Of a stretch of DNA of 64,000 nucleotides, positions 5,288 through 62,712 are shown in pieces (the stretch's first letter is position 1; each line of letters starts with the position of its first letter). A program made the translations under genes and the position numbers. Origin of the DNA: an uncultured Crocinitomix sp. (GTDB lineage: Bacteria; Bacteroidota; Bacteroidia; Flavobacteriales_D; Crocinitomicaceae); assembly GCA_937136425.1 (NCBI GenBank), contig CAKZON010000114.1, positions 1 to 64,000 on the forward strand, written 5' to 3'. Under the pieces are notes generated by a model, which was not told the DNA's origin, searched no databases, and saw nothing but the letters and a program-made list of their open reading frames with translations.

Positions 5288-5525
5288 AACACCCAAATAA
5301 ACACACCTTCCAAGTGTAAACGTTTGTAAATGCTTATTTCGGGTTAATTTTCTACTAAAAATACGCAAAGATTCAATTCTAACGTGACATTTGGCAAAAA
5401 ACATGTTGATATAAGTGTAAAAACCCAATCCGTTCACTCCCAACTAATTCTTCAATAAAAAAGTTTTAGCCTTGCCTTGGTTGGAAATCGTTATAATGAT
5501 TGTTTTGTCTTTGAATTTTACCTGA
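5288..5525 (-). repeat. 238-bp direct repeat, copy 1
   Basis: This segment matches 9879-10116 without gaps and with about a dozen mismatches. The first 107 bases (5288-5394) are identical. On the minus strand it consists of the last codons of an FG-GAP/ASPIC protein gene, its stop codon, and about 155 noncoding bases ending in GGGTGTT. Homology stops exactly after that GTT, where this copy continues GTAG and the other continues ATGC. The noncoding part is better conserved than the coding part, pointing to selection on a site rather than to a merely recent duplication. Confidence 0.9.
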
Positions 5526-9878: not shown

Positions 9879-10116
9879 AACACCCAAATAAACACACCTT
9901 CCAAGTGTAAACGTTTGTAAATGCTTATTTCGGGTTAATTTTCTACTAAAAATACGCAAAGATTCAATTCTAACGTGACATTTGGTAAAAATCACGTTGA
10001 TATAAGTGTAAAAACCCAATCCGTTCACTCCCAACTAATCCTTTAACAAAAAAGTTTTAGCCTTGGCTTGATTGGATACCGTTATGATGATTGTTTTGTC
10101 TTTGAACTTTACCTGA
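9879..10116 (-). repeat. 238-bp direct repeat, copy 2
   Basis: This is the intact-gene copy of the repeat described at 5288. It covers the last 27 codons of the FG-GAP/ASPIC gene (10035-10116) and the following noncoding 156 bases. On the minus strand the noncoding part ends in GGGTGTT, immediately followed by ATGCAC, the start of the cyclase-like gene. The block contains two TTTACACTT elements and a GCGTATTTTTAGTAGAAAAT stretch conserved base for base in both copies. Confidence 0.9.
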
Positions 10117-60296: not shown

Positions 60297-60674
60297 ATGA
60301 ATGTACCAGCGGATTTAAAATACACTAAAGACCACGAATGGGTTAAAGTTGAAGGCGATACTGCTACTATTGGAGTAACAGACTTTGCACAGAGTGAACT
60401 AGGTGATATTGTATACGTTGAAGTTGAAACAGAAGGAGACACTTTAGATAAAGAAGAAGTTTTTGGATCAATCGAAGCAGTAAAAACAGTTTCAGATTTA
60501 TTTATGCCAATTAGCGGAGAAATCACTTCGTTTAATGAAGAATTAGAATCTAATCCAGAAGTTGTTAATACGGATCCTTACGGTGAAGGGTGGATGATTA
60601 AAGTTGCTATTTCTGATCAGTCAGAAATTGATGCTTTAATGTCTGCAAGTGATTACGAGGCATTAATTGGTTAA
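60297..60674 (+). CDS. gcvH: glycine cleavage system H protein
   Basis: A 125-residue lipoyl carrier. Lys63 in [13 protein letters not shown] is the lipoyl attachment site; [24 protein letters not shown] and [13 protein letters not shown] are family typical. H protein shuttles the aminomethyl group between the P and T proteins in glycine degradation. The other gcv genes are not in the window. A VanZ-family gene overlaps its end by eight bases. Confidence 0.95.
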
Positions 60675-61065
60675 GAGGTTTCTTTACCATATCCCTTGGA
60701 TAATTTGGCTTTTAATCATTATGGTTTTGAGCCTAGTTCCCGGAGATCAGCTTCCAAGCATTAAATTTGATTGGATCTCGATAGACTCCGCCGTACATTT
60801 CGGCATGTATTTCATCTTGAGCATCCTATTTTTATTCGGTTTTTTAACATTTGAAAAAAAAATCAAAAAAAAACTGAACCTTTCAAATTTACAGTTGTAC
60901 GGAGTAGTGATATTGGTTGGTATATTGATTGGATATGCCATAGAACTAATACAGGGGAATTTTATCTTTCGGCGGTATTTTGATGTAGCTGATATTGTAA
61001 TGAATAGTTTTGGTACAATTTTTGGTGTAATCATGTACAGTTTGACTGGTAGAAAATTAACATAA
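60667..61065 (+). CDS. VanZ-family membrane protein
   Basis: A 132-residue polytopic protein with four predicted helices (about 7-24, 43-62, 74-96 and 108-126). The VanZ signature shows as [20 protein letters not shown] and [29 protein letters not shown]. VanZ proteins are of unclear role, originally linked to teicoplanin resistance and widely present in cell-envelope settings. It overlaps gcvH and is therefore cotranscribed with it. Confidence 0.8.
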
Positions 61066-61107
61066 ATTTAAAGCGCTCTTAATACAGATTTTTGTAATTT
61101 AGCGTTG

Positions 61108-61122: not shown

Positions 61123-61794
61123 ATGGAACTAAAAAAATCAAAAGAAGCAAACTTAGAGAACAAAAAGAACGGTTTTCGACTTGTAGGTCTTGTTATGATC
61201 TGTGCAATTGTCGGAATGGCTTTTGAGTACACTGGGTTTACAGCCTTGGAAGGCAACAACATTGTGCAAGAAAACACAATGGATGATGATTTAATCTTCG
61301 ATATACCTGAAGAAGAAGAGCCACCACCACCAGAAGAAGAAGCACCACCACCACCGCCAATCATTGAAGAAATTGAGGTTGTTGATGATGAAGAAGAAGT
61401 GGAAGATGTGGATTTATCTGTAGTGGATGATGTTGTTGATGAAGTTCCGGATGAAGAGCCGCCTGCACCAGTTGCGGAAAAGGTATTTGACTTTGTTGAA
61501 GTTGATCCAAGTTTCCCTGGTGGACCTGCTGCTATGAACCAATGGATTGTTGACAATGTAGAATATCCTGAATTAGCTCGTGAAATGGGTGAACAAGGTA
61601 TTGTTTATGTTAAATTCGTTGTTAACAGTAAAGGAAGCATTGAAAAAGTATCTATCCGTAAAGGAATTTCAGATGCATTGGATGCTGAAGCGAAAAGAGT
61701 TGTTAAAAAGATGCCTAAATGGGTTCCTGGTGAGCAAGCTGGAAAACCTGTAAGCGTAAACTTTACACTCCCTATTCACTTTAGACTAGGATAA
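61123..61794 (+). CDS. TonB-family energy transducer, paralog 1
   Basis: From ATG 61123 (MELKKSKEANLE) the protein is about 223 residues. A membrane helix lies at about 20-36 (LVGLVMICAIVGMAF), then a Pro- and Glu-rich periplasmic stalk (EEEPPPPEEEAPPPPP). A TonB C-terminal domain occupies about 130-223 (FPGGPAAMNQWIVDNVEYPELA, VKFVVNSKGSIEKVSIRKG, VKKMPKWVPGEQ, LPIHF). It transmits proton-motive energy to outer-membrane receptors. No ExbB, ExbD or receptor is in the window. It has a tandem paralog at 62044. The longer upstream start at 61105 is less likely. Confidence 0.85.
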   Translation: MELKKSKEANLENKKNGFRLVGLVMICAIVGMAFEYTGFTALEGNNIVQENTMDDDLIFDIPEEEEPPPPEEEAPPPPPIIEEIEVVDDEEEVEDVDLSVVDDVVDEVPDEEPPAPVAEKVFDFVEVDPSFPGGPAAMNQWIVDNVEYPELAREMGEQGIVYVKFVVNSKGSIEKVSIRKGISDALDAEAKRVVKKMPKWVPGEQAGKPVSVNFTLPIHFRLG

Positions 61795-61812
61795 AAAACA
61801 AAAAATTATATA

Positions 61813-61845
61813 AAACCGTTCTAATTTTTATTAGGACGGTTTTTT
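61813..61845 (+). terminator. intrinsic terminator after tonB paralog 1
   Basis: AAACCGTTCTAA and TTAGGACGGTTT pair with one wobble, and a T run follows. It is 19 bases after the stop codon. A similar hairpin follows the second paralog, so each gene is transcribed as its own unit. Confidence 0.75.
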
Positions 61846-61933
61846 TATGGAATAACATTTCGCCCTAACCTACTAGAACACCACAACAACACAACTAAAC
61901 TGCTCTCCATAAGCAACTTCACATGTTTTAAAA

Positions 61934-62039
61934 TTGAATTTTGGTATAATTCTTGGTGTTTACGAATTATGATTATCAAACGATAATTCTAACACCTAAG
62001 AGACTTCGCAATCTCTTAAGGCACTTAACCAAAATTCAA
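61934..62039 (+). ncRNA. nested inverted-repeat leader element before tonB paralog 2
   Basis: Three perfect stems are nested. An outer stem TTGAATTTTGGT (61934-61945) pairs with ACCAAAATTCAA (62028-62039). Inside lie GGTGTT-TAC-GAATTAT paired with ATAATTC-T-AACACC (61955-61996), and TAAGAGA paired with TCTCTTA (61997-62018). Drawn as RNA this is a three-way junction closing four bases before the ATG. It could be a cis-regulatory leader that hides or exposes the start, or a palindromic insertion element. No known riboswitch class was recognised. Confidence 0.55.
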
Positions 62040-62043
62040 AAAT

Positions 62044-62712
62044 ATGGAACTAAAAAAATCAAAAGAAGCAAACTTAGAAAAGAAAACTTTGAGCTTTCGC
62101 CTCATGGGACTCGTTATGGTTTGCGCCGTTGTTGGTATGGCATTTGAACACACCGAATATGAAGCAATAGATGAAGCACCAATCATTCAAGAAGAGTCAG
62201 ATATAATTTCATGCTTCTTCGACCCGCCACTGGTGGAACCAGTAGAAGAAGAGACTCCCCCTCCACCACCAATTCAAATTGAGGAACCAGTAATCGTTCC
62301 AGATGAAATAGAAGTAGAAGATCTTGATTTGTCTATTATTGAAATAATTCAAGAGGAAGCACCTATTGATCCTTCACCAATGTCTCCAGAACCAGAAATA
62401 ATTTACAACAATGTGGACATTGAACCAACCTTTCCTGGCGGATATGCAGCAATGAATCAATGGATTGTTGACAACATAAGCTACCCAGAACTGGCTAGCG
62501 AGATGGGTGAACAAGGAAAAGTTTATGTGGGATTTGTAGTAAACAAAAAAGGGAATATTGAAAAAGTTTCGATTCGTAAAGGAATCTCTGATGCTTTGGA
62601 TGCTGAAGCCAAACGCGTAGTTAAAAAAATGCCCAAATGGGTTCCTGGAGAAAAAAATGGCAAACCAGTAAGCTCTAACTTCACTCTTCCAATCCACTTT
62701 AAAATAGGATAA
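62044..62712 (+). CDS. TonB-family energy transducer, paralog 2
   Basis: A 222-residue paralog of the gene at 61123. The first 35 bases of both genes are identical, the membrane helix and C-terminal TonB domain are highly similar, and the stalk is more diverged (PLVEPVEEETPPPPPIQIEEP). Both proteins share FPGGYAAMNQWIV, PELASEMGEQGKVYVGF and VKKMPKWVPGE. The tandem pair may serve different receptors or conditions; different leaders (palindrome versus three-way junction) support separate control. Confidence 0.85.
   Translation: MELKKSKEANLEKKTLSFRLMGLVMVCAVVGMAFEHTEYEAIDEAPIIQEESDIISCFFDPPLVEPVEEETPPPPPIQIEEPVIVPDEIEVEDLDLSIIEIIQEEAPIDPSPMSPEPEIIYNNVDIEPTFPGGYAAMNQWIVDNISYPELASEMGEQGKVYVGFVVNKKGNIEKVSIRKGISDALDAEAKRVVKKMPKWVPGEKNGKPVSSNFTLPIHFKIG

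Follow-up and report, generated by a model that had tools for sequence, protein, structure and literature searches.

A sigma-54-type promoter and a small leader hairpin as the probable basis of a palindromic fold before the second tonB paralog of a Crocinitomix relative

Sigma-54 promoters, TonB and structured leaders in flavobacteria

Promoters recognized by sigma-54 follow the pattern GG-N10-GC, with a TGGCAC-like element at -24 and a TTGC-like element at -12. A survey of predicted sigma-54 targets, in which the elements TGGCAC and TGC are centred at -24 and -12, places COG0810 (TonB) prominently among the targets in Flavobacteriia and calls this prediction unconfirmed (PMC12316311). In Flavobacterium psychrophilum, for which one sigma-54 and three PF00158 proteins are reported, sigma-54 motifs precede genes for protein quality control, envelope stress, gliding and exported proteins (PMC9723704). 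The same account lists TonB-ExbBD among the genes that are highly expressed in all samples, which does not favour a conditional promoter in that species, and it describes 64 structured 5′ UTRs in flavobacteria (PMC9723704).

The locus described here belongs to a genome whose nearest named relatives, among the matches listed, are Crocinitomix, family Crocinitomicaceae. It lies in a stretch of 64,000 nucleotides, which was analysed as a whole and is called the window below, and consists, in this order, of a VanZ-like ORF, tonB1, tonB2 and a gene for a DeoC-like aldolase. The window also contains a pair of direct repeats of 238 nt (5288–5525 and 9879–10116, 95% identical). The link between sigma-54 and TonB that we propose is the same as that predicted in the published survey, where, in its account of targets, it is made at the level of the class (PMC12316311), whereas here it concerns individual sites, orthologs, tandem paralogs and a leader structure in Crocinitomicaceae. 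The site resembles the SM4 motif of F. psychrophilum as given in its description, with TTGG at -24 and a correctly spaced TTG at -12, and the two systems are also alike in having exported-protein genes among the targets and one sigma-54 together with three strong PF00158 activators in the genome; in contrast to sigma-54/SM4 promoters as described there, however, the -12 element here ends in GG rather than GC (PMC9723704). Like the structured flavobacterial 5′ UTRs of that report, the leader studied here is a structured one in front of a coding gene, but what sets it apart is a small hairpin immediately upstream of tonB, with arms that covary (PMC9723704).

The palindromic fold before tonB2

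The features of the locus, all on the forward (+) strand of the window, are as follows.

60667–61065, +: VanZ-like ORF, 5′ of tonB1 (ORF and domain search)
61009–61026, +: matching sigma-54-type site of tonB1, within the 3′ end of the VanZ-like ORF
61123–61794, +: tonB1, the first tonB paralog, 223 aa
61814–61846, +: hairpin resembling an intrinsic terminator, with a T run, 3′ of tonB1 (read by eye)
61934–61945, +: 5′ arm of the outer stem, TTGAATTTTGGT, overlapping the -24 element (pairing and fold)
61940–61957, +: putative sigma-54-type -24/-12 promoter, TTTGGTATAATTCTTGGT (motif, and conservation in the G005 and G006 orthologs)
61955–61996, +: inner arm, helices 2 and 3 (fold; no both-side changes seen)
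61968–62043, +: predicted 5′ UTR of 76 nt, its start placed 12 bases after the -12 G
61995–62021, +: 5′ UTR hairpin, CCTAAGAGA–loop–TCTCTTAAGG, which includes helix 4 (fold, compensatory changes, permutation test)
62028–62039, +: 3′ arm of the outer stem, ACCAAAATTCAA, A-rich, preceding the start codon and kept in the compared tonB2 orthologs
62044–62712, +: tonB2, the second tonB paralog, TonB_C, 222 aa

A sequence-only reading of this DNA had drawn attention to the palindromic fold at 61934–62039, and its geometry was confirmed: the twelve outer pairs (61934–61945 with 62028–62039) are perfectly complementary, four bases separate the outer stem from the ATG at 62044, and the inner perfect stems are present. 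Helix 2 pairs 61955–61960 with 61991–61996, helix 3 (61964–61970/61983–61989) is nested on it, and helix 4 pairs 61997–62003 with 62012–62018. When 127 nt (61924–62050) were folded, the energy was -30.3 kcal/mol; shuffled versions gave a mean of -14.96 (s.d. 3.02, i.e. z = -5.08), and none of 200 folded as well. The fold is thus indeed unlikely to have arisen by chance, as had been claimed, yet strong folds are not unique within the window. Scanning both strands in frames of 106 nt at steps of 12, with z-scores calculated for the 400 frames of largest GC-corrected excess only (60 shuffles each), placed the tonB2 leader lowest among these 400 (-6.84 for the frame at 61933; -5.99 when the frame at 61934 was scored again), and z ≤ -5 was reached at 11 distinct places including this leader; by eye, some of the other ten resemble terminators. 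When up to one mismatch is allowed, the window contains the arm sequence in two places, namely at the two arms themselves, but a single arm is unremarkable, because shuffled windows yield 2.08 such occurrences on average.

The inverted-repeat shape would also suit a palindromic mobile element or repeat, which had been offered as one explanation. The whole leader, however, matches only itself in the genome of 6.09 Mb (E ≤ 0.001), and along its length it finds a counterpart among 58 other genomes in G005 alone (71% over 105 bases), with four further genomes matching over 21–30 bases only and set aside as chance; nor did the search of viral contigs reveal the arm pattern. Since a single genomic copy was found, this explanation was rejected, and we regard it as very improbable.

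A second possibility is that all 106 nt are transcribed from a promoter further upstream and fold into a sensor RNA with a three-way junction that controls tonB2. Conservation of the helices was counted in three orthologous tonB2 leaders (G000, G005 and G006), a comparison of low power: helices 1, 2 and 3 have no pair changed on both sides (72, 72 and 50% of cells pair), whereas helix 4 has two of its seven pairs changed on both sides, with 90.5% of cells paired, and is the sole helix that behaves as a conserved RNA hairpin. The compensatory changes that had been proposed as a check in relatives are thus confined to helix 4, and measures of the whole structure in these three leaders were matched by 99 of 500 shuffles. 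A junction RNA could account for the strong, non-random fold, for the invariance of five outer pairs (TTTGG/CCAAA) in all three orthologs and for the best fold of G005, in which a stem of eight pairs joins the same two outer regions; judging from these folds, the outer pairing does not appear to be wholly private to the present genome. Yet one side of the five kept pairs is the GG region of the promoter and the other is the A-rich region at the start, each of which is conserved as sequence. Moreover, folding is weaker in the G005 leader (-18.6 for 116 nt, compared with -29.6 for 120 nt in the present one), and no outer stem forms in the best fold of G006.

The local sequence, too, speaks against a transcript that enters from upstream. 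The terminator-like hairpin at 61814–61846 should keep the tonB1 and tonB2 transcripts apart, and between 61795 and 62043 there is no TAnnTTTG-like -7 box (at most one mismatch) with a TTG at a spacing of 17–23, the one-mismatch boxes at 61822, 61929 and 61936 being without a TTG partner. A housekeeping -33/-7 promoter with a TTG partner was discarded for tonB2 for this reason. Rfam 15 returned 11 hits over 61800–62100, none of them at the gathering score and the best of them located on the tonB1 terminator region, so a known riboswitch or leader family was discarded as well. That the region is cis-regulatory for tonB, as first proposed, is supported, but its description as a three-way-junction RNA is probably wrong, and a full-length sensor RNA of this kind seems unlikely to us. 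Nothing was found that points to iron or energy as the signal. Rather, the palindrome is best seen as the TTTTGG of a promoter meeting the CCAAAA of a conserved A-rich start region, plus some extra matching flanks; that the -24 TTTTGG and this CCAAAA complement each other in the present species would be a coincidence.

A sigma-54-type block and its distribution

The promoter block contains GG at 61943–61944 and GG at 61955–61956 with ten bases between them, a spacing which we take to be the geometry of a sigma-54 -24/-12 promoter, and TTTGGTATAATTCTTGGT is overlapped by the 5′ arm of the outer stem. Before tonB2 the block reads TTGGTA(C/T)A-N4-TTGG, so that the -24 element and the spacing fit, but a G replaces the C of GC; this -12 element, TTGG instead of the canonical TTGC, is found before tonB1 and tonB2 alike. 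In the alignment of the three tonB2 leaders (G000, G005 and G006), the block TTTGGTAYAATTCTTGGT is variable in one of 18 columns and, with 17 of 18 columns kept, represents the longest nearly invariant stretch, with flanks that diverge. The second longest conserved stretch comprises 14 columns adjoining the start codon, and bases 61934–61939 of the outer 5′ arm are not conserved. Of the eight other genus genomes compared, two (G005 and G006) carry the motif in a tonB2 leader, and in G001 the gene taken as tonB2 has a leader without the block. A shared enhancer site was not clearly visible by eye in the 170 upstream bases aligned in the three orthologs. As far as sequence can tell, 61934–62039 most probably represents the promoter and 5′ UTR of tonB2, i.e. 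a sigma-54-type promoter followed by a small leader hairpin.

The tonB2 leader of G001 (L023, G001:C105:1-270) carries, by eye, an inverted-repeat insertion with the ends TAGTGTCTGGTCG and its near-complement, which resembles a small non-autonomous transposon.

All nine genomes of the genus encode a protein with PF04552 (rpoN), and the RpoN of the host genome has the three sigma-54 Pfam domains and contains ARRTVAKYR, presumably the RpoN box. There are ten PF00158 matches in the genome, of which three are strong (E ≤ 1.9e-68) and seven weak (E ≥ 1.4e-8). By eye, two of the three strong activators (L144, L145 and L146) have response-regulator-like sequence. The third, again by eye, adjoins a MiaB-like gene and is possibly an envelope-linked regulator.

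With these components, the RpoN holoenzyme would bind the -24/-12 site at 61940–61957 and wait there until one of the three enhancer-binding ATPases of the genome opens the complex, and transcription should then start near 61968, 12 bases downstream of the -12 G. From such a start it follows that 61934–61960, with the 5′ arm of the outer stem and that of helix 2, would be promoter DNA and absent from the mRNA. The leader of about 76 nt would retain one hairpin (61995–62021), situated some 20 nt before the AUG, which probably shields the 5′ end or keeps the initiation region open. A role of this hairpin at initiation is plausible because the phylum does without Shine–Dalgarno sites: Bacteroidetes mRNAs do not carry them, and structure as well as adenines close to the start tune initiation (PMC6847099). 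If this is true, the energy supply for uptake across the outer membrane would be under activator-dependent transcription, and what appeared to be a riboswitch candidate becomes a testable promoter.

In the genome of 6.09 Mb, six sites match the strict pattern YTTGGYAYRNNNYTTGSW; each of them precedes an ORF start, and two are those of tonB1 and tonB2. Across the nine genomes of the genus there are 30 strict-pattern sites against 18 sites of the reversed pattern, a modest numerical enrichment. Position separates the two patterns: according to a script, an ORF start follows within 18–200 nt at 27 of the 30 sites but at 2 of the 18 reversed ones, and by our own reading the ATG in question is internal to a larger ORF in one of the 27 forward cases and in both reversed cases. 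The remaining 26 sites precede tonB-type genes in 11 cases; in the other 15, the genes encode proteins that are outer-membrane-lipoprotein-carrier-like (5), small and exported (5), of an MRKKKQ type (4) or of one other kind, with all these labels read from the translations and not from a family search. A LolA-like exported protein has an identical site, TTTGGCATAGATTTTGGA, near its start in five genomes of the genus (L138, L164, L165, L174 and L175).

A third type of tonB, whose protein begins with MIAKK, was noticed in G003:C21, G002:C89, G004:C106 and G000:C85. Near-canonical sigma-54 sites of the form TTTGGCAT...TTGCA lie about 50 bases before the ATG of this type, and in G002, G003 and G004 the sites that precede it read TTTGGCAT...CTTGCA.

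Four of the tonB sites sit within the VanZ ORF, where their bases encode FGTIFG, and conservation of the motif at these embedded sites may be partly driven by the protein. This raises the question of whether the block before tonB2 is a remnant of the 3′ end of VanZ that was copied along with tonB, with tonB2 using another promoter, as could be imagined for tandem paralogs of which tonB1 has its block of the same kind inside the VanZ ORF. The block before tonB2 is kept in G000, G005 and G006, however, although the surrounding VanZ sequence is unrecognisable there, and the third-type tonB genes have more canonical sites that lie outside any long ORF. We consider such a relic improbable and continue to read the block as a sigma-54-type promoter of tonB2.

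Beyond the genus, 34 of the 80 loci from a search for relatives were scored, namely those matching from the first query residue. Among the first 12 of them (Crocinitomicaceae and close MAGs), 11 scored at least 19, as against 3 of the other 22, one of these three being a Crocinitomix third-type tonB. Crocinitomix catalasitica and C. algicola (L058 and L060) have a site of the tonB1 type. In a family set of 60 tonB upstream regions, hand-picked from the match list, 47 scored at least 19 compared with 126 of 6000 shuffles. The weights used for both sets were chosen by hand from the sigma-54 consensus, at a stage when the motif was already known. The sites usually lie at -39 to -63 or at -94 to -129, with two of the 47 (L211 and L222) far outside these ranges, and a C at -12 is lacking from most of the 60 family sites. 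Several genomes are common to the set of 34 loci and the set of 60 upstream regions, and the scores are supportive but not independent tests. At the level of single sites and backed by orthologs, the data lend support to the prediction, published but unconfirmed, that TonB is driven by sigma-54 in flavobacteria.

The leader hairpin

In each of the three tonB2 leaders, the predicted transcript folds with a hairpin ahead of the start region, and a similar hairpin with other stem sequences is present in the majority of the tonB1-type leaders from Crocinitomix and from L196–L201; it was absent from the folds of L207, L233, L245 and L247. Because the tonB2 hairpins stayed out of register when 16 leaders were aligned with MAFFT, covariation was assessed by an alignment-free permutation test, in which the native arms of a hairpin located 10–26 bases before the ATG are compared with arms whose 5′ halves have been swapped between leaders. 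From 24 folded leaders 18 were kept, after leaving out the near-duplicates G005a and G001a and the four leaders without a hairpin (L207, L233, L245 and L247), and dropping these four favours a covariation result. In the 18 long leaders the native arm match was 15.61 against 12.63 after permutation, with none of 20000 permutations as high. The same count of 0 in 20000 was obtained when the four hairpin-less leaders were restored (22 leaders) and when the two near-duplicates were added to the 18 (20 leaders), and it rose to 1 in 20000 over 28 long leaders, which include eight from the family with their best site beyond -90.

These eight extra family leaders showed no arm covariation when taken alone (11166/20000), and none was found in 35 tonB genes with short leaders (4128/5000) or in a broader set of 46 short leaders, some with far or weak sites (4218/5000). 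Six windows shifted upstream by 20–120 bases gave between 684 (shift of 40) and 18932 of 20000, so that one of the shifted windows was fairly low (684). Many leaders taken singly are unremarkable against their shuffles. In the four tonB2 leaders alone hairpin covariation was not significant (5840/20000). The signal is therefore due mainly to leaders of the tonB1 type from Crocinitomix and near relatives, and it is extended to the element before tonB2 on the grounds of position and helix 4.

It is conceivable, although we put this forward tentatively, that in Crocinitomix and its near relatives the long leaders of tonB contain an undescribed, covarying cis-acting RNA hairpin that couples sigma-54 transcription to the translation or stability of TonB. 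Such a hairpin would be lineage-specific, since it is not seen in the short-leader tonB genes or in the eight other long leaders of the family, and it may be new; with its covarying arms it is worth testing.

A further element was observed in many tonB1-type leaders, where TAnnTTAGC recurs some 28 bases upstream of the ATG (61095–61103 in the window; also L196–L200); no such box was seen in the G000 tonB2 leader. It resembles the -7 box of Bacteroidota, given as TAHHTTTG (PMC6847099). Upstream of 54 ORFs in the window, TAnnTTAG occurs 7 times in sense and 4 times in antisense orientation, and TAnnTTTG 11 and 4 times, respectively. TAnnTTAGC may represent a second promoter, or it may belong to the hairpin.
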